NCBI RefSeq assembly: GCF_009650435.1 | Contig: NZ_VVIP01000078.1 | Span: 1-64,000, forward strand | Direction: 5' to 3' | DNA length: 64,000 nt | Origin: Foetidibacter luteolus | GTDB lineage: Bacteria; Bacteroidota; Bacteroidia; Chitinophagales; Chitinophagaceae | Shown here: piece by piece, positions 1 to 8,992 of the stretch | Layout: each line of letters begins with the position of its first letter | How positions within the stretch are numbered: position 1 is the first letter of the stretch | Program-made: the position numbers and the translations under genes | The notes under the pieces: model-generated | What the model was told of the DNA's origin: nothing | The model's database searches: none | Seen by the model: only the letters and a program-made list of their open reading frames with translations

Positions 1-839
1 CAGCTTACCAATACGACCTTTATTCACAAAACAAGAGCTTTTACTATAAGTCAATTCCATTCTACAACTACGACCAGACAAATTTTGGGAAGACGATTGT
101 TTACGATGCTAAGACAAAAAAGAGGTTGTATCAAATTGACAACTATCTGCCTCGTCAAGCTTTTCTGAGTAATAACGGTAAATCGCTTATCACGACAAGA
201 TATTGGATGTGGGGACATGATAACTTTGACGACCAAGAGCTCATTGAATTTTATGTGAATGGGAAAAAATCAAAGAAGTACTTTGTAAAGGACTTAATAA
301 GCGACAGGTCAAAACTTCAATTTACTTCATCACATACTCTATGGTATGATGATATGTTTATTTACAATGACACACTATTTGTGTTGACCTTAGATGATAA
401 GGCAATACTTATTGACGCCAACAAGACTGAAATCATTGGAAGAAAAGACAAATCATTTGTGACGAAGCGGTTCGACTTGAAAAAGCTTCCTCAACTGAAA
501 TCGGTGGTGTACGATAAAATAAAATATCCAGAAGGTTATCAGTTTCCAGATTTGATTACGGGAAGGAAGTTTAGGACTGAGTTAATCAAAGGTTTAAACA
601 AGACCGAAGTAAAAGACTACGATAGCTGCAAATTCTATATTATGGTTTATGGAGCTATTGACAGGAAAGGCCATTGTGATATTTTCTTACTATCTGCAAG
701 TATAAATAAGAGTGACAAAGATGACCCACTATGGAAAAAGCAAGTTGCAGATTGGGTAACAAGGCAAAAGTACAAGACTGACCTCATTCCAATTAACTGC
801 GACAAATGGGTTTTTCAGGAATTCTTTTATCTCAAGTGA
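1..839 (+). CDS. Hypothetical protein, 5' end outside the window
   Basis: The reading frame is open from base 3 and ends at the TGA at 837-839, so the first residues lie upstream; the in-frame TTG at 126 is internal and is not the start. At least 279 residues are visible. The protein is rich in aromatic and charged residues, with strands such as 'DTLFVLTLDDKAILID' that suggest a beta-rich fold. No signal peptide, membrane segment or catalytic motif can be seen. The stop codon lies 7 bases before the attC-like site at 847-1052, the usual packing for the gene of an integron cassette. I do not recognise the family and no function is proposed. Confidence 0.75.
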   Translation, partial: AYQYDLYSQNKSFYYKSIPFYNYDQTNFGKTIVYDAKTKKRLYQIDNYLPRQAFLSNNGKSLITTRYWMWGHDNFDDQELIEFYVNGKKSKKYFVKDLISDRSKLQFTSSHTLWYDDMFIYNDTLFVLTLDDKAILIDANKTEIIGRKDKSFVTKRFDLKKLPQLKSVVYDKIKYPEGYQFPDLITGRKFRTELIKGLNKTEVKDYDSCKFYIMVYGAIDRKGHCDIFLLSASINKSDKDDPLWKKQVADWVTRQKYKTDLIPINCDKWVFQEFFYLK

Positions 840-846
840 CGAATAG

Positions 847-1052
847 CAGCACACAACAGGCAGTTTTGCGTCAGCAGGGGGCGACGACTAAATCCTCATC
901 GGTAGTACTACCATCACCTACATATCCGGCTGATCGAACACAGATGAGCAAGAGAATATATTTTCAGCTTTTGTAACTTACATCGGCTGCAGTTCCGGGC
1001 TGGACGTTTTTCAAATGCCCTGCCGAACGCAAAGCTGTGGGCGTTAGGCGTT
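847..1052 (+). repeat. attC-like site A
   Basis: The opening box is AGCACACAAC (847-856) and the closing box starts with G1043^TTAGGCGTT. The inner arms pair well: CAGTTTTGCGTCAGCAGGG on the left against CCCTGCCGAACGCAAAGCTG on the right, with one extra base on one side. The interior shares the block ATCGGCTGCAGTTCCGGG (about 982-999) with sites B, C and F. It ends the left-most cassette and precedes the Hachiman cassette. The 206-bp length exceeds the roughly 60-140 bp usual for described attC sites. Confidence 0.7.
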
Positions 1053-1092
1053 ATGCAATGACAGCCCCTACAAACCATCAACAGACCGGCAA

Positions 1093-1992
1093 ATGAGACA
1101 GTCTTTACTCAACCTTATTGAAAAAACAATTGTCTACCAATATGACCTGCCTAATTCAAATGTTGGGATATCAAAAACTATCATCTCTGTTGATAATGAC
1201 CAATGCTTTAAATCTCTCGACAAAAACGACTTTACTGAAATTATTTACAATTCTATTTTAGAATATTCATTTAATGAATTTGAAATTGAAAACAAAGACT
1301 TTGACAAATTACATTTTATAGCATTACAAAAGAGGTTAAAATATAATCCCGATTTGGACCTTGACCAAAAGGTGAAATATGGTTTTTTAGGAGAGGTTAT
1401 CTTGTTTGGGGTGCTATACGTACTATTTAAGTCGCAGCCATTAATAGCAAGAGGATACTTTTATAATCCATTAGAGAATTCAGAAACTAAAGGATACGAC
1501 TCTTATCATTTAATTGAAAATAATAATCAGACAGAACTTTGGTTTGGCGAAGTCAAATTTCATAAAAATTTTAAAACTGGAATTGATAGCATTTTTAAAA
1601 ATATTGACAAAGCAATTTCCGATGATTATCTAAAGACAAACGTATTCGCTATTTCAAACCAAATTAATAATCTACATTACCGAGGTTCAAGAATTGAATC
1701 AGTTATTAAAGATTGGGAAGAGAATCCCTACTTGTCTATAATTAACGAACTACGGCAACACAATATGAAATTGGTTTATCCTGTGATGCTGTTGTATGAA
1801 GAAGATGATTCAGGATTTGATGAGAGTATCAAAAATGTACCTCAATATATTCAAGACAATTATACGGCAAAGGCTTTTAACATTACAGTGCCATACTCGA
1901 TTTTTTTTATTTTGGTTCCTATGAAAGACGTTAAAACAATTAAAGAAGAAGTTATAAAATGGATAGAATTAAGGAAACCACTAATGTCTTAA
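1093..1992 (+). CDS. hamA: Hachiman defence nuclease HamA (DUF1837)
   Basis: This 299-residue protein is the nuclease subunit of a Hachiman antiphage system. The DUF1837 fold is recognisable by a GE pair at residues 100-101, 'KGYDSYHLI' with Asp136, and 'WFGEVKFHK' carrying Glu153-x-Lys155. Together these give a PD-(D/E)xK-type active site. HamA is known to act with HamB, degrading DNA once the helicase is triggered. The ATG at 1093 is chosen because it begins the conserved frame and lies 49 bases after the cassette crossover at 1043/1044; no clear ribosome site is seen. The 3' end overlaps hamB by 34 bp, so the two are translationally linked. Its A+T-rich composition differs from the core genes. 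The only doubt is functional activity. Confidence 0.9.
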   Translation: MRQSLLNLIEKTIVYQYDLPNSNVGISKTIISVDNDQCFKSLDKNDFTEIIYNSILEYSFNEFEIENKDFDKLHFIALQKRLKYNPDLDLDQKVKYGFLGEVILFGVLYVLFKSQPLIARGYFYNPLENSETKGYDSYHLIENNNQTELWFGEVKFHKNFKTGIDSIFKNIDKAISDDYLKTNVFAISNQINNLHYRGSRIESVIKDWEENPYLSIINELRQHNMKLVYPVMLLYEEDDSGFDESIKNVPQYIQDNYTAKAFNITVPYSIFFILVPMKDVKTIKEEVIKWIELRKPLMS

Positions 1993-4265
1993 GACAGATA
2001 AACAAATTCAACTCAAAGGAAATATCTGATGATGTCCTTATTAAATCTGTATGCGACTACTTTAACGAAATAAAAAATGATACTTTAAATCAGTCAGACT
2101 TAAAATTTCTGAAATACATATCAAATATCTCAGGCATTCCTCATTACTTCGATTTACTTAACAATTTCAACCAAACTACTGAAATAGAAAATTTCAACTT
2201 AAACACATTTGCATCTTTACTTTACGAAAGCACTTTACATACTAATGACAATTTAAAAGTTCATAAATATCAAATGAAAATTATGGACTTATATGAGGCT
2301 GGAAAGCTGAACAGATATTTTCTATCTGCAAGCACATCCTTTGGCAAAACCCATATAGTTTTTGAAATAATAAAGAAAATGAACTATGGAAATGTGGTTT
2401 TGATATTTCCAACCATTGCGTTACTATCGGAGAATTTAGAAAAAATAATATCAGATAGCAACTATGAATACTTTAGAAATAAATACAAAATCCATACTTT
2501 AAGTGAGGCAAGTCAATTCGGCGAAAATAATTTATTCATATATACTCCAGAAAGATTCTTGTCCTTCAAAGAAAAAAATCCAGAAAAAATTAGTTTTGAT
2601 TTTGCATTTATTGATGAAATATACAAAATCGACAATGAATATATTATGGACGATGAGGTTAAAGAAAATGAAAGAGACGTCGCTTATCGTTTGTCAGTAT
2701 TCTACGCTTTGGAAAATAACGTGGATGTTTTGTTAGCCGGACCATACATTGATTTTTACGATTCCCAAAAGAACGGATATAATAGTTCATTCGACAATTT
2801 CCTAATGCAAAACAAAATTGAGCTCGTCAACTATAATCAGTATGAGATTGTTAGTAAATCTTATGAAGACATTAAGTCCAAAAAGCATATTGAGGTTGAT
2901 AAAGAATTAACATTTGATTTTGAATCCACAAAAAAATCAGATAAGTTTATTGAAGTAGCCAGAAAAATAAATGCAATTGATGAAAATACCATTGTATACT
3001 GTTCAACTAGAAACTCTACAGAGAACTATGCAACGACGCTTTTAGAATCCAATGTATTTAATAACCATTCTGACTCAAGTTATTCTGATTTTATAAACCA
3101 TATATCAAGAAACTTTAACAAGGAATGGACAATTATAAAAGCCCTTCAAAAAGGAATTGGTGTCCATCATGGCTTAATTCCAAAGTACATTCAAAAAGAA
3201 ATTATTTCTTTATTCAATGCTGGTTATTTAAAAGTTTTAATATCAACAACTACAATAACTGAAGGAGTAAACACATCTGCGAAAAATTTAATTGTATTAC
3301 ATAGTAAGAAAGGCGATAAAGACCTTAAAAAATTTGATGCAAAAAACATAGCAGGAAGAGCTGGAAGGTTTGGGCATCATTATGCAGGAAGAGTAATTGT
3401 ACTCGACTCAAAATTTATGAAAGCAATTGAATCAGATGCACAGGGAATAAAGCATAAAAATTACGATTTACAAGCCCCCAAAGACGAAATTGATTTATTT
3501 TACTCTAATGATGAATTTCTTACTCAAGCTGACAAAGCAAGAAAAACGGATATAAAAGCAGAACAAGAAAAGAGAGGCATTCCCGATGAAATTTTCAATT
3601 TATATAAAGTTGTAAGTCGCCTTGATAAGATTGTAATTTATGATGAGATTAAAAAATTGACAGCCTTAGAAATAGAATCTATAAGAAATCTCATTAGAGT
3701 TATTAACTATAAGATGGACATTGACAATGATGGTTTCCAAATAATTTTAAAAGTCATTTTTCCAATCGTCAAAAATGAAAAGCTCAAGTTTTATATTACA
3801 CAAAGAGATAAAAACGAACAATATTCAGTACTAACACACTTAATTCATTTTTATCTAATCGGTGGTTTTATGAGTTCAGTTAGGTTTAAACTAACTCAAA
3901 ATAAAACGATTGATAAAGCTATATCCGAGACAGCCGATTTTGTTTATAATACTTTGAAATATCAGGTCGTCAAATATCTAGGTGTGTTTAATGTTATGTT
4001 CAGGTTTATACAAGCGCAGGAAAATAATAAAACATTTGATGAGACTACTGGTATTGACCGTCTTTTAGTAAAACTTGAATATAATGCCTTAACTGAATTT
4101 GGACGGATAGCAAGTGATTATGGAGTGCCGTCCAACATTATAGACTACTATGAAAATAGCGATAAATCAAATGCGATTAGAGCTAATTTTGACACTTATG
4201 AGATGAGCATATTTAATAGAATTGAAAAAATAATTAACTCGACAGACAGAAGCACAAACGCCTAA
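1959..4265 (+). CDS. hamB: Hachiman defence helicase HamB
   Basis: This 768-residue superfamily 2 helicase is the partner of HamA. Walker A 'SASTSFGKT' is at residues 123-131, motif Ia 'FPTIALLSEN' at 150-159, the DExx box 'FIDEIY' at 217-222, motif V 'STTTITEGVNT' at 429-439 and motif VI 'NIAGRAGRFG' at 463-472. The motif VI form resembles Ski2-like helicases, as expected for HamB. The C-terminal 250 residues have no recognisable catalytic motif. The ATG at 1959 lies inside the end of hamA. All helicase motifs are intact, so the gene looks functional. The reading frame ends at TAA 4263-4265, inside the opening box of the next attC-like site, so the gene fills its cassette exactly. Confidence 0.92.
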   Translation: MDRIKETTNVLRQINKFNSKEISDDVLIKSVCDYFNEIKNDTLNQSDLKFLKYISNISGIPHYFDLLNNFNQTTEIENFNLNTFASLLYESTLHTNDNLKVHKYQMKIMDLYEAGKLNRYFLSASTSFGKTHIVFEIIKKMNYGNVVLIFPTIALLSENLEKIISDSNYEYFRNKYKIHTLSEASQFGENNLFIYTPERFLSFKEKNPEKISFDFAFIDEIYKIDNEYIMDDEVKENERDVAYRLSVFYALENNVDVLLAGPYIDFYDSQKNGYNSSFDNFLMQNKIELVNYNQYEIVSKSYEDIKSKKHIEVDKELTFDFESTKKSDKFIEVARKINAIDENTIVYCSTRNSTENYATTLLESNVFNNHSDSSYSDFINHISRNFNKEWTIIKALQKGIGVHHGLIPKYIQKEIISLFNAGYLKVLISTTTITEGVNTSAKNLIVLHSKKGDKDLKKFDAKNIAGRAGRFGHHYAGRVIVLDSKFMKAIESDAQGIKHKNYDLQAPKDEIDLFYSNDEFLTQADKARKTDIKAEQEKRGIPDEIFNLYKVVSRLDKIVIYDEIKKLTALEIESIRNLIRVINYKMDIDNDGFQIILKVIFPIVKNEKLKFYITQRDKNEQYSVLTHLIHFYLIGGFMSSVRFKLTQNKTIDKAISETADFVYNTLKYQVVKYLGVFNVMFRFIQAQENNKTFDETTGIDRLLVKLEYNALTEFGRIASDYGVPSNIIDYYENSDKSNAIRANFDTYEMSIFNRIEKIINSTDRSTNA

Positions 4266-4459
4266 CAAAAGGTTTGCCGCAAGGCTGGCGGACTGAATAA
4301 CAATTGGCAGTTGTACTATTATCAGCTAATATCGGGCTTGACCGAATTCTATTTGGCTTTTAGTTGTTAACTTCAACATCAGTTTTTCAATCGGCTTCAG
4401 TTGCCGGGCAGACAGTTATAAAATACCAGCCCTGCGGCAAGCCCCGAACGTTGGCAGTA
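4257..4459 (+). repeat. attC-like site B
   Basis: The opening box AACGCCTAAC (4257-4266) is the exact reverse complement of GTTAGGCGTT at 1043-1052, the start of the same cassette. The closing box begins at G4450^TTGGCAGT. The inner arms GGTTTGCCGCAAGGCTGG (4271-4288) and CCAGCCCTGCGGCAAGCC (4427-4444) pair over 18 positions with two mismatches. Bases 4389-4408 hold the block shared with sites A, C and F. Site C is a close homologue over its whole length. Confidence 0.8.
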
Positions 4460-4466
4460 ATGTTAT

Positions 4467-4808
4467 ATGAGCCTTATGCAAACAATAGAGAAGCAAGTAG
4501 CAGATACAATAAGAACAATCGAATCTTTTTTTTCAGAAAGCTTTTTTGAAGTTAGTAGCACTCATGAGACATTAAATAAAGCTGTTGCTAAAACTCAGAG
4601 AAAAGATGAAGGTTTTTTCTTCGAATTTTCAAAGATGAGTTTGCCATCTCAAGATGATAGGCACAAGATTACATATGCCCCGACATTACCAATTAGATTT
4701 TCAAATAATTTTAGGATTATCGAATTTGACTTAATCAAATCAAAATGCAATTTTTCTTTTGGGTTTGCAGGATTCACTTCGGTATCTGGTTTTATAAAAA
4801 GAGTTTAA
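4467..4808 (+). CDS. N-terminal fragment of a frameshifted HEPN-motif protein
   Basis: This 113-codon frame starts at ATG 4467, 16 bases after the crossover at 4450/4451. It ends at TAA 4806-4808, just downstream of the run AAAAA at 4796-4800. Removing one A from the run would read straight on into the frame of the following 348-codon ORF, joining '...SGFIK' to 'EFKTEALPSH...'. The +1 frame is open from 4798. The most economical reading is one gene of about 465 codons with a one-base insertion, either a real mutation or a sequencing error in a homopolymer. The fragment itself has no recognisable domain. Two separate genes are less likely because the second has only a TTG start and no ribosome site. 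Confidence 0.7.
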   Translation: MSLMQTIEKQVADTIRTIESFFSESFFEVSSTHETLNKAVAKTQRKDEGFFFEFSKMSLPSQDDRHKITYAPTLPIRFSNNFRIIEFDLIKSKCNFSFGFAGFTSVSGFIKRV

Positions 4809-4818
4809 GACTGAAGCA

Positions 4819-5865
4819 TTGCCAAGTCACAACCATTCTTATTATCGAGCAGTAATTATAAGAGAGACAGATCATGCCTTAAGCGGTTTTTTTGCACACA
4901 ATAATTGTTTGAAAATCGGGACAAGCACATATGGCTCGGGAGTATTAGAAATTAACATAAAAGGCACTCAACTTAATCTATTTTCCTATAAATCAAAGGA
5001 AACAAAAAATTCATATTTCATAATAGAGACTCAAGACAAGTGCTCTTATTCAAATTTCATTTCACTTCAAGATGAGATAATACTTGCAATTACTTATTTA
5101 ACTGGGACTTTTTTAGGAAAAGAGATTTATATAATTGGTAGCGATACAAATACTTTTGAAAAAAACTCTGTATTGAGCTTAAAACGCTTTTTTGATGATT
5201 TAAAAAATGGTTATGCAGCGATTCCAGATGTCACTCTTCAGCATCAGGTAAATGCACCAGTTATAAGATTTTCAGTTAAATGCCTTGAGAGCCTTATCAC
5301 TGAACTCATTGATTCATTGGTTTACAAAAGAACTCTTTTACTTCTTTGCCAGGCTCACACTGAGCCAGCTTATGTGACATCAACTTTATATTCTGTAGCT
5401 CTCGAAACTATCACAAACAAAATATCAGAAGAAATAAAAGAAAAAATAAAGCCAATAAAAGAAAAGGAAATTTCCAACAACCTTAGATGCGAACTTAAAA
5501 AGGCACTACAAGAATTTAAAGCTAAACTTTCAGACGAAGCATTTACAAAAATCACATCTGACATTGATAGAATTAATTCGCCGACTAATAAACAAAAACT
5601 ATTACAGCCATTTAAACATTTAAATATTACCCTGCCATCAAAAGACATTGAAGCTATAGAGAGACGAAATGATTTTTTACATGGTAGGATACCTGAGCAA
5701 GACGATAAACATTATCTGTCCTTAACTAACGGAAGGCTTCTGTTTTGCATCAATTGTTTAGTTTTAAAGCATATTGGTTTTGAAGGATATGTAGTTTATC
5801 ATCCGAGCATATATCAATTTAATAACAACCTAAAAATTGAAGAGAGTTTAATTCGAAAAGTGTAA
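4819..5865 (+). CDS. HEPN-motif protein (C-terminal part of split gene)
   Basis: These 348 codons begin at a TTG, but the frame is open from 4798 and probably continues the preceding fragment after a one-base shift. The C-terminal third is helical and contains 'ERRNDFLHGRI' with Arg283-x4-His288. This is the R-x4-6-H signature of HEPN ribonucleases, in a setting like ApeA-type antiphage proteins. HEPN proteins of this kind cleave RNA during abortive infection. The remainder is a beta-rich N-terminal region without named motifs. It shares a cassette array with a Hachiman system, which fits a defence role, but the assignment is by motif and context only. The stop codon is 7 bases before site C. 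Confidence 0.65.
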   Translation: MPSHNHSYYRAVIIRETDHALSGFFAHNNCLKIGTSTYGSGVLEINIKGTQLNLFSYKSKETKNSYFIIETQDKCSYSNFISLQDEIILAITYLTGTFLGKEIYIIGSDTNTFEKNSVLSLKRFFDDLKNGYAAIPDVTLQHQVNAPVIRFSVKCLESLITELIDSLVYKRTLLLLCQAHTEPAYVTSTLYSVALETITNKISEEIKEKIKPIKEKEISNNLRCELKKALQEFKAKLSDEAFTKITSDIDRINSPTNKQKLLQPFKHLNITLPSKDIEAIERRNDFLHGRIPEQDDKHYLSLTNGRLLFCINCLVLKHIGFEGYVVYHPSIYQFNNNLKIEESLIRKV

Positions 5866-5871
5866 AAACAC

Positions 5872-6073
5872 TACTGCCAACAAAAGGTTTGCCGCAATGC
5901 TGGCAGACGTAATAACCATCGGTAGTTTTACTACTATCAGCTAATATCGGGCTTGACCGAATTCTATTGGCTTTTAGTTGTTAACTTCATCATCAGTTTT
6001 TCAATCGGCTTCGGTTGCCGGGCGGACAGTTACAAAATACCAGCCCTGCGGCAAGCCTAGAACGTTACCTGCA
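5872..6073 (+). repeat. attC-like site C
   Basis: The opening sequence AACACTACTGCCAAC (5867-5881) is complementary to GTTGGCAGTAATGTT (4450-4464), the start of the same cassette, at 14 of 15 positions. The closing box begins at G6064^TTACCTGCA. The inner arms are GGTTTGCCGCAATGCTGG and CCAGCCCTGCGGCAAGCC. The interior is nearly identical to site B, including TAATATCGGGCTTGACCGAA and AATCGGCTTCGGTTGCCGGG. Confidence 0.8.
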
Positions 6074-6076
6074 ATT

Positions 6077-6799
6077 ATGAGACTACTCACAACCATATTT
6101 CTGCTGAAACTTATTCAGTCATGCAAAGACACAAAACAGCATGACAGACGAACTGCTTTCGATGACAATTTATTAATCGGTGAATGGCGACTTGACTCTT
6201 CAACTAATCGCTTCTTTTCTTATGACAGACTGATTATTTTAGAAGACAGCAGTCTTTATTTATTTTCAGGTTCGGACGGAGGTTCTTTAATGACTACAGG
6301 ACGCAGGTTTGGGAAAGATTCAATTTTGACAGAACTCTATGGCACTTTGAAATTAAATTTAATTGACTCTAACCATTTCCAGTTAGGCGGTGGTTGGACA
6401 AATAATGAAAACTTTTACAAACGATCTAAATATGGAGACTTTCATGACAACTTAAAAGAATACTTAAAGCAAGATTCCTTAAGAAAAAAAGTTATTGGTT
6501 GGTGGAAACTAGTCTCATTTCAAATGCCTGTAAAACTTATTAATTACAGCGGCTATTTTGACAAATTCACATTAAATATTCGAGAAGACGGTAATGCAGT
6601 TTTTTATCTTGAGAATAAACTTGATTCTACAGTTGACTATTCATACAAGGTTAATGTAGACGGCATTGACTTTAATCGTGGTTGTATTGTTGGGTCAGAC
6701 TGTAAGACATCTTTTGATTCTAAAGGGAGAATGAAATTAGTACTTGACAACAGAATGGGCGACACATTACTGTTAGAAAGACTTACCGACCTAAAATAA
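6077..6799 (+). CDS. Lipoprotein with two lipocalin-like halves
   Basis: The 240-residue product starts 'MRLLTTIFLLKLIQSCKD', a lipoprotein signal with lipobox 'LIQS-C' at Cys16, so it should be anchored to a membrane facing the periplasm or surface. The mature part holds two similar stretches, 'LIGEWRLDS' near residue 35 and 'VIGWWKLVS' near residue 139. Each is followed by beta-rich sequence, as in duplicated lipocalin-like domains. The ATG at 6077 is preferred over an upstream in-frame ATG at 5978, which lies inside the attC-like site; the chosen start is 12 bases after the crossover at 6064/6065. The stop codon abuts the next site. Ligand and role are unknown. Confidence 0.75.
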   Translation: MRLLTTIFLLKLIQSCKDTKQHDRRTAFDDNLLIGEWRLDSSTNRFFSYDRLIILEDSSLYLFSGSDGGSLMTTGRRFGKDSILTELYGTLKLNLIDSNHFQLGGGWTNNENFYKRSKYGDFHDNLKEYLKQDSLRKKVIGWWKLVSFQMPVKLINYSGYFDKFTLNIREDGNAVFYLENKLDSTVDYSYKVNVDGIDFNRGCIVGSDCKTSFDSKGRMKLVLDNRMGDTLLLERLTDLK

Positions 6800-6800
6800 C

Positions 6801-7004
6801 TGCAGGTAACATTGGTATTGCCAATAGTGGGGCTTGACATTGGAGCAATCAGTAGTAGTAATTCTGTTGTACTGCGGTTCGGGGCTCGACGAATTAAGCC
6901 CAGCATTAGTTCTTAATATTTATCTTTATCAAAAAGCCAGGCAGCGGTTCCGGCGGACGGAATTCTAATTCCCCACCAGCGGCAATACCTATTCGTTACC
7001 TGCA
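6801..7004 (+). repeat. attC-like site D
   Basis: The opening box TGCAGGTAAC (6801-6810) is the exact reverse complement of GTTACCTGCA (6064-6073), the start of the same cassette. The closing box is G6995^TTACCTGCA. The arms GGTATTGCCAATAGTGGGG and CCCCACCAGCGGCAATACC pair well although their sequence differs from sites B and C. Structure is therefore conserved while sequence is not. The site is followed by the recombinase relic rather than by a normal cassette. Confidence 0.72.
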
Positions 7005-7033
7005 AGCATAGAGCGACACACCCTAACGAATAG
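6989..7033. repeat. Inverted repeat at recombinase/array junction
   Basis: CTATTCGTTA (6989-6998) and TAACGAATAG (7024-7033) are perfect reverse complements separated by 25 bases. The left arm includes the crossover position of site D, and the right arm ends where recombinase homology begins. It may mark the boundary of the insertion, or be a remnant of a further recombination site. Confidence 0.6.
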
Positions 7034-7639
7034 CACTTCCTGCATGTAAAGGGGCAGCTTGCGGGCGATGAATTTGGAGAGGCCTACATACCGGTCTTTT
7101 TTGCCTTTGCCCAGGCGGATATGCACCTGGCTGCGCTGCACATCTACGTCCGTTATCTTGAGCAGCCGCAGTTCATTGATCCGCAGGCCGCCTGCGTAGG
7201 CAAAGGCTAACAGGAAACGGTGCTTTAAGGGGCGGGGGGACTTAAACAGCTCTTTGCATTCCTGTTTGGATAACACCACAGGCAACTTCTTTTCTTTCTT
7301 TACCGGCGGCATCTGTATGGCTTTATCTTCCATATTAAACAGCCGGAACCAGTAACGAAGGGCGAATACGGCATGCTTGAAATAGGTAAGGGAACATTGT
7401 TCATGCACCATCATGCGGTAGAGGTAACTGTTAATCTCTTCCACGCTGACAAGGTGGGGTGGCCGGTTAAAATGAATGGCTATATACGCCAGGCTGCGGC
7501 TGTAGTTTACCAGCAGGCTTTTACTGCTTTGTTCTATTGTTGCCTTTTCGATAAATTTGGCGTATGCATCTGCAAAACCCGGTACGCCTTTCTTTGCTTG
7601 TGATACAACCGCGTTGTACTGTCTTTTGATAGAACTCAT
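6989..7639 (-). pseudogene. Truncated tyrosine recombinase
   Basis: Residues 1-202 resemble a tyrosine recombinase: an N-terminal SAM-like DNA-binding domain (about 20-105), then the start of the catalytic domain with 'AGGLRINELRLL' (catalytic Arg153) and 'GKGKKDRYV' (beta-hairpin lysine near 180). The frame then runs 14 codons into unrelated sequence and stops. The H-x-x-R pair and the nucleophilic tyrosine are missing, so it cannot be active. Homology ends at about 7034, directly beside a 10-bp inverted repeat (6989-6998 / 7024-7033) overlapping the closing box of site D. The N-terminal half is not like integron IntI and looks closer to the stand-alone recombinases of Bacteroidota mobile elements. 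It is read against the array and has probably interrupted a cassette. Confidence 0.75.
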
Positions 7640-7708
7640 AGTAAATGGTTTTGTTGAACCTATAAGTTCCGAATTTTGATATAAGGCAGGAAAGGCTACC
7701 GAAGGTTT

Positions 7709-7843
7709 AGTTCAACAGGCGGTTTGCCACCATACCGGCTGAAGAACAAGTGTTAAACAAGTGAACATTATTCAACTTCGTAATAAATTTAAACCGACGA
7801 ACCACGAATGCCGCTACAGCGGCAAGCCGATGGACATTATGCG
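7709..7843 (+). repeat. Divergent, shorter attC-like site E
   Basis: The opening box AGTTCAAC (7709-7716) is followed by AGGCGGTTTGCC. The right arm GCGGCAAGCCGATGGACATT ends with A^TT near 7836/7837 in place of G^TT. The arms pair through GGCAA and CCG. The conserved interior of sites A-D is missing and the site is only about 135 bp. A short GTTGAAC at 7652-7658 mirrors the opening box, so a tiny non-coding unit may lie between the recombinase relic and this site. Confidence 0.5.
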
Positions 7844-7863
7844 CGACCTCCTGACTCAAAGCC

Positions 7864-8277
7864 ATGAAAACTAATTTTCAAATTGAACACTTTAGAGATA
7901 TATTGTTTGATGGCAGGCACATAGACCTTCACAACAATTTTAAGTTCCAGGATTTTCATTACGACCTGGATAAGGGCCAAGTTACACTTCGGTGGATTAA
8001 AGACGCTGGAGACTGGATTGTTCAGAATGAACTCTCTAGGGTCATGATCACCCATATCGGAGTTACATACTTTAAATTTCTACCAATGCTGGAGCCGGTT
8101 TTACCAGAGGATTCCCAAATCTTATCCGAAGTGACTTTTTTCCCGTCGGCTGACAGACAACAGGACACACATTTTCTCGATCAATCCAAACCGGACCAAG
8201 AGGACGATATAATCTACACATTCATTGGCGGACAGGTATTGAGGATTGGCTGCGATGAAGCGACCCTCTCGATTTGA
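7864..8277 (+). CDS. Small hypothetical protein in cassette
   Basis: This 137-residue acidic protein starts at ATG 7864, 27 bases after the likely crossover of site E, and stops at 8275-8277, 6 bases before the opening box of site F. It is predicted soluble, with no signal peptide or membrane segment. Patterns such as 'FKFQDFHYDLDKGQVTLRWI' suggest a compact beta-rich fold. Small acidic proteins of this kind are often immunity or accessory proteins, but nothing here proves that. Position and orientation are those of a cassette gene. Confidence 0.65.
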   Translation: MKTNFQIEHFRDILFDGRHIDLHNNFKFQDFHYDLDKGQVTLRWIKDAGDWIVQNELSRVMITHIGVTYFKFLPMLEPVLPEDSQILSEVTFFPSADRQQDTHFLDQSKPDQEDDIIYTFIGGQVLRIGCDEATLSI

Positions 8278-8283
8278 CCGAAG

Positions 8284-8481
8284 GCACACAACAAGCGGTT
8301 TGATGTTACTCTGGCTGACCGAGCTCAGCTTAAGCTTCGGTTCGCTTATCAGCAACAGATACGGCTGACGATACGCTAATGGACGAAAGAATATATTTTG
8401 TACTTTGGTTTTTTAATCGGCTGCAGTTACCGGCTGGCCGTTATAATATCAGCGCAGCAGCAAGCCGTAACCGTCGGTGCA
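8284..8481 (+). repeat. attC-like site F
   Basis: The opening box GCACACAACAAGCGGTTTG is followed by an interior sharing TTAATCGGCTGCAGTTACCGG (in part) and GAATATATTTT with site A. The right arm CAGCAGCAAGCCG leads to the closing box G8473^TCGGTGC, where the usual GTT has become GTC. The cassette it ends begins ATTATGCGCG; this resembles the complement of the opening box (GTTGTGTGCC) only with several transitions. The site looks partly decayed. Confidence 0.6.
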
Positions 8482-8602
8482 ATTAAATTTGACGCACCCT
8501 AATATGCAAAGTGGGATAAGACAGCAACAATATAGAAAATGCTTATATACTCCAACTTCGGGCTGTGCAAAATTTCAATGTTTACTATATAACATAGGGA
8601 AA

Positions 8603-8992
8603 ATGAAATTTGAATGCAGAAAAATATCAGTAATTGATGAAGAATTTGGCTGCACCGTTACTCTATCGGAAAATGAAGATAAGTGGTCATCGGTACTGGA
8701 CATAAATGCTGTCAGCGTAATGGCTTCAGTGGAACAGTATCTTTTGCTCCAACGGACTTTTTCAGAAGATGAATTTGAAAGTGATTATTATTACATCGAA
8801 ACAAATGACCCTGAGATATCAGGCGAGCTTACAGTATTTAGTATCTACTTATATCGTAAATATTTATCAATGACTTATGAAAACGAGCTGATTGAAATCA
8901 GTCTTAATGTAAACGACAGGGAATTTGAAAGTTTGAAGCAAGGGTTAAAGAAATTGACTGGTGGCATTGGCCACTTGATTATTCCTGAGTAA
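8603..8992 (+). CDS. Small hypothetical protein, last gene of array
   Basis: The ATG at 8603 is chosen because it follows the purine-rich ATAGGGAAA and begins 'MKFECRKISVID'. The longer frame starting with GTG at 8477 would begin inside the attC-like site. The 129-residue acidic protein has no signal, membrane segment or known motif. Strands around 'SGELTVFSIYLYRKYLSMTY' and a C-terminal helix suggest a small alpha/beta fold. It has no complementary site downstream, so the right end of this cassette has been lost or is unrecognisable. The function is unknown. Confidence 0.6.
   Translation: MKFECRKISVIDEEFGCTVTLSENEDKWSSVLDINAVSVMASVEQYLLLQRTFSEDEFESDYYYIETNDPEISGELTVFSIYLYRKYLSMTYENELIEISLNVNDREFESLKQGLKKLTGGIGHLIIPE

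Follow-up and report, generated by a model that had tools for sequence, protein, structure and literature searches.

An integron-type cassette array in Foetidibacter luteolus, probably run by Bacteroidota tyrosine recombinases other than IntI

The window analysed here, a stretch of 64,000 nucleotides at the left end of an 83,479-base contig (C76) in the draft genome of Foetidibacter luteolus (7.28 Mb, 95 contigs), very likely contains the end of an integron-type array on the chromosome, an array of more than 100 cassettes which, judging from sequence comparisons, would be run by Bacteroidota tyrosine recombinases that are not IntI. The first-pass annotation had already read the repeated sites of the window as an integron-type cassette array, and this reading is borne out by the matching of cassette boundaries, by the recurrence of whole cassettes and by attI junctions lying beside an integrase. 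Its expectation of an intI gene left of base 1, encoding the extra domain particular to IntI, does not hold: no gene in the window genome passes the integron-integrase model of NCBI (TIGR02249), and the array integrases of relatives do not have the domain.

To describe the sites, a covariance model (R1) was built from seven of them, namely sites A, B, C, D and F of the window together with two similar sites on contig C39. All six sites that had been noted for their shared architecture are present, with R1 scores of 48-191 bits (Table 1). As proposed, a lineage-specific model could be derived; R1 recovers site E, which was left out of it, and matches sites throughout the genome and in kin genomes. 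Each site was also said to lie 3' of a plus-strand cassette gene; this is the case except for site E, which follows a truncated minus-strand IS91-associated recombinase. No further site was found by R1 3' of the gene at 8603..8992, and an Rfam search of the sites gave no family match.

Table 1 Features at the left end of the window (sites scored with covariance model R1)
Feature	Position	Strand	Description
Gene fragment	3..839	+	Cassette gene cut by contig start; frame open to contig end; no Pfam or PADLOC match
Site A	848..1055	+	179 bits over 848-1052; crossover G|TT at 1043
hamA	1093..1992	+	First gene of cassette 1043-4450; PADLOC PDLC00167, 427.8 bits, full length; Pfam HamA, 93.7 bits
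hamB helicase	1959..4265	+	PADLOC PDLC00191, 1116.6 bits
Site B	4257..4459	+	190.8 bits; crossover G|TT at 4450
Two open frames	4467-4808, 4819-5865	+	Different frames; no confident Pfam or PADLOC family
Site C	5872..6073	+	187.4 bits; crossover G|TT at 6064
Cassette gene, 240 aa	6077..6799	+	Open frame; no Pfam family assigned
Site D	6801..7004	+	156.1 bits; crossover G|TT at 6995
IS91-type relic	6989..7716	-	Tyrosine recombinase (6989-7639) without C-terminal half; element end GCTACCGAAGGTTTAGTTC at 7695-7713
Site E, degenerate	7707..7845	+	48 bits, E 3e-12; left out of model building
Cassette gene, 137 aa	7864..8277	+	Open frame; no Pfam family assigned
Site F, last of array	8283..8482	+	169.6 bits; 3' box GTCGGTG
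Gene past last site	8603..8992	+	Resembles, by eye, the integrase-neighbour gene of relative G045 (L055)

The 3.4-kb cassette at 1043-4450, in which HamA and the HamB helicase adjoin (427.8 and 1116.6 bits), is by its predicted proteins a complete two-gene Hachiman defence system carried as one unit. The two open frames within 4467..5865 are probably one cassette gene split by a frameshift.

When the whole genome was searched with R1, 128 matches were obtained at E <= 1 and about 117 at E < 1e-5, a number that excludes chance for the site family. More than 20 contigs bear same-strand attC-like arrays, many of them at contig ends (C88, C20, C84, C65, C56, C47, C11 and others), as is expected where repeats broke the assembly. 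Among 101 distinct sites, standard pairing is seen in 93.8% of the cells of the 17 named pairs and 526 cells are changed on both sides, in line with the earlier observation that the arms vary while their pairing is kept; at least five arm families occur within the window genome alone. The stem covariation score of these sites is 0.712, compared with 0.191 for shuffled controls and at most 0.106 with partners slid, a very large gap, although the score profits from an alignment that had been made to fit the structure. The idea that the sites fold better than shuffled sequences holds moderately for site B (z -1.4 to -1.75), and the structure rests on covariation instead. Of 77 stems free of gaps, 75 have A opposite C at position 13, a mismatch flanked by covarying positions; the arms are of equal length, without a bulge, in 77 of 102 stems, and the outer stem is more stable on the bottom strand in 68 of 101 sites and equal in 16. 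With their paired R and L boxes, G|TT crossover and structure conserved over sequence, these elements have the sequence characteristics of attC sites. Matches to the interior of R1 only (model positions 74-169 or 80-169) were also seen inside cassettes, at C39:1933-2027, C88:3912-4006, L131:10936-11025 and L057:14013-14108.

In the cassette logic of integrons, the 5' box of a site shares a cassette with that cassette's start, whereas the 3' box is part of the cassette that follows. Accordingly read, the 3' end of site A (GTTAGGCGTT) and the 5' box of site B agree at all 10 positions, and the 5' boxes of sites C and D each equal their own cassette start (10/10). In a comparison of 64 neighbouring pairs, agreement between the 5' box and the start of the same cassette is 5.55 of the 7 variable positions, and complete in 39 pairs; with the 3' box of the same site it is 2.98 of 7, and with shuffled starts 3.04 of 7. 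The agreement covers 10 bases and goes no further. The main gene lies on the plus strand, the direction of the array, in 65 of 67 cassettes, and the median distance from the cassette start to its start codon is about 31 bases. These comparisons delimit the predicted cassettes as discrete units, each with its first bases at G|TT and a site of its own at the opposite, 3' end. The condition set by the first-pass annotation, a link between the sites and changing gene content, is answered by whole cassettes that reappear in other arrays and are bounded exactly by G|TT. An 811-bp cassette (C39:1034) aligns at 83% identity with relative G058 over its exact full length, identity breaking at the 3' G|TT; in G058 it is the first cassette at attI, in the window genome the second of its array. 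The arrays on C47 and C84 share a 783-bp cassette at 100% identity, the C47 copy lying at a contig end.

The head of an array is found on contig C39, which starts with the C-terminal 68 residues of a recombinase, followed by about 70 bases and then by the cassette start GTTATGTGCC at about position 272, which is matched by the 5' box of site G (CGGCACATAAC). The recombinase fragment is closest to the array integrases (60-70% identical, versus 37-49% for IntI). In relative G007, a 395-aa integrase, the junction and the cassettes follow one another on one strand. R1 sites lie downstream on the plus strand at 44 of 80 named integrase loci, and most of the remaining loci end within 2 kb downstream; over the 80 loci and six relatives, 138 sites are positioned downstream of the integrase end and one upstream (-41). 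In relatives the first cassette starts 40-560 bases past the integrase stop codon. At 37 loci, the 5' box of the first site matches a GTT junction 55-563 bases past that stop codon, and these loci share the conserved junction CGTAtATtnatG|GTT, the putative attI, whose motif TATATTTATG resembles a Bacteroidota -7 element and might belong to a promoter of the first cassettes. A search of attI for an inverted repeat as core binding sites gave arms of at least 6 in 9 of 48 cases versus 3.8 when shuffled (maximum 10), which is not significant. Among 15 further genomes of the class and phylum, a plausible junction was found in 11 and chained cassettes in 7, the shuffled control averaging no more than 0.08 chained pairs.

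Integron surveys identify IntI by its extra domain (PMC9668308). The spacing between the KGxKDR and HxLRH motifs is 64-73 residues in 94 array-type integrases and 106 in four IntI proteins (IntI1 and three from the phylum Bacteroidota). TIGR02249 gives the array integrases a split match (about 2-180 and 240-315) below its cut-off, and Xer models match them in one continuous piece; the additional domain of IntI is missing from them. The catalytic residues R, K, HxxR, H and Y are invariant in their alignment. For the window genome, the missing domain is deduced from relatives, because its own copy is the 68-aa C-terminal fragment at a contig end. The N-terminus of the integrase, about 80 residues, is modelled as strand-strand-helix-strand-strand-helix. 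Its ten best Foldseek matches are XPB and SMARCAL1 HARP, all weak (E 0.07-1.1), and its match to Pfam HARP reaches E 0.0036 at best, below the cut-off, so that the modelled domain weakly resembles HARP/XPB-DRD; that it may serve to hold folded DNA is our guess. Three related integrases (L063, L068 and L070, from G062, G091 and G100) seemingly contain several copies of the HARP-like N-terminal domain. A sister relationship between IntI and such multi-repeat proteins had a tree support of 81% and is not claimed.

Sites of this type were found in 58 of 101 genomes of the window's kin (R1, at most 24 sites scored per genome), and the junction-bearing taxa in Bacteroidota include Chitinophagaceae, Runella, Pedobacter, Flavobacterium and some members of other classes. 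In a tree from a quick search, with long branches present, the array integrases of Chitinophagaceae, Runella, Pedobacter and Flavobacterium form one group of 37 (SH-aLRT 99), apart from the Xer-like proteins of the window genome, and IntI forms a separate group (SH-aLRT 100). Four cassettes with a different, shorter site were delimited by boundary walking in Flavobacterium cellulosilyticum (L180); R1 misses the shorter sites of Flavobacterium loci. No arrays were seen near the related integrases L067 and, in Flavobacterium, L186, L194 and L195, and boundary walking at L186 and L194 gave no cassettes. Chryseobacterium plasmids with a related integrase have at most one plausible cassette and no chained array. 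On one of them, from Chryseobacterium sp. SNU WT5, the related integrase (L223, 8986-10029) is annotated as 'site-specific tyrosine recombinase/integron integrase', and a mobile plasmid version of the system is possible. In the closed genome G004, sites lie at 1.09, 1.15, 1.24, 2.01, 2.42 and 4.79 Mb, with a complete integrase at one of these places only. Canonical IntI passes the cut-off in 107 of 393 genomes of the other classes of the phylum and in one kin genome, G078, of the same order, where the gene (L059, G078:C40:3280-4539) scores 428 bits and has no R1 sites nearby.

The frequency of canonical IntI in the other classes, and its presence in G078, would fit arrays that are CALIN left or maintained by a canonical IntI integron, with the neighbouring integrase a bystander. 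We consider this unlikely, since IntI over the cut-off is absent from the window genome and from all but that one of its 101 kin, yet more than half of the kin carry the sites, and since dozens of genomes have a non-IntI integrase at the array head, together with an attI junction that matches.

The IS91-type relic in the window, whose element end abuts site E, has a near-identical recombinase on C39, followed by IS91-like transposase pieces (element at C39:2707-4860); its family was named from its residues and from an annotated IS91 pair on L224. Its recombinase was considered as intI and rejected, being truncated, IS91-associated and outside the array-integrase clade, on a long branch. The element end (GCTACCGAAGGTTTAGTNC) has nine copies in the genome, of which at least six lie exactly at an attC 5' box, directly before AAC; copies elsewhere are at C84:4369-4390, C84:5813-5834, C55:221563-221584 and C61:42957-42978. 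The precision of these insertions could indicate that the element's own tyrosine recombinase is the motor that spreads the sites, but we regard this as very improbable, because most sites have no adjoining element, the 5' box that would match the cassette is not created by the element end but is displaced by it (as seen on C84), and the recombinase falls outside the clade. The IS91-type element appears, from the positions of its ends, to target attC as a passenger. Insertion sequences that target attC are known from the IS1111-attC group; the element described here shares this target but differs in transposase family. We give the lowest probability to a reading of the sites as plain repeated hairpins, such as terminators, REP-like elements or RNA elements, since, although they are intergenic, hairpin-forming and often near stop codons, a static repeat would explain neither the 10-base match of the 5' box to the start of the upstream unit nor the recurrence of units with exact boundaries and the placing of the first unit at the integrase-side junction, and Rfam has no match for them.

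Under the favoured reading of a cassette array run by a non-IntI recombinase, we infer that the integrase recombines a folded single-stranded attC with a double-stranded attI. The attC strand used would probably be the bottom one, by analogy with classical integrons, and new cassettes would be inserted beside the integrase's own 3' end. Selectivity could be provided by the stem mismatches, perhaps together with the HARP/XPB-DRD-like N-terminal domain, replacing the absent additional domain of IntI. Whether these integrases make up a second, phylum-wide Bacteroidota integron lineage, with an N-terminal fork- or hairpin-binding domain of this kind instead of the IntI additional domain, is to our mind evenly balanced; such a lineage would either preserve the condition that preceded the gain of the domain by IntI or have arrived independently at the same chemistry. 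Gain of the I2 domain has been proposed to have allowed the recombination of folded single strands (PMC4792948), and a working integron without I2 would make that proposal directly testable.

Almost no complete integrons have been reported from Bacteroidetes, earlier only In0 and then one in Salinibacter ruber (PMC9024848). Our literature search, with many journals and all preprints outside its scope, found no earlier report of the present system. Standard searches seem to overlook integrons run phylum-wide in Bacteroidota. If the integrase works as proposed, surveys miss the integrons of a major environmental and host-associated phylum, including cassettes for Hachiman-type defence.

Compared with known systems, the one described here would work like an integron and yet have an integrase without the domain by which IntI is defined. 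It resembles classical IntI integrons and superintegrons (VchIntIA with VCR; IntI1) in an attI beside a tyrosine recombinase, tandem promoterless-looking cassettes, a G|TT crossover and an imperfect attC stem with a more stable bottom strand, and the best structural match of a modelled array integrase is VchIntIA (2a3v). It differs from them in that the array integrase has an N-terminal extra domain and no additional domain, is co-oriented with the cassettes and has attI at its 3' end, and in an R box of 10 bases (GTTRNNNGYA) instead of GTTRRRY. Bulged extrahelical bases are described for the stem of VCR (PMC2727003), whereas the stems here seem to have mismatches instead. With XerA, XerC and XerD the array integrases share a continuous match of the catalytic core (NF040815 XerA, 188-222 bits; 4a8e, 5hxy), but Xer proteins use dif-type double-stranded sites and have no cassette arrays. 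A comparable case would be the integration of CTXphi-type phages by host XerCD, in which a Y-recombinase lacking that domain acts on a folded single-strand phage site (PMC4792948); that system, however, has no integrase of its own, no cassettes and no array.
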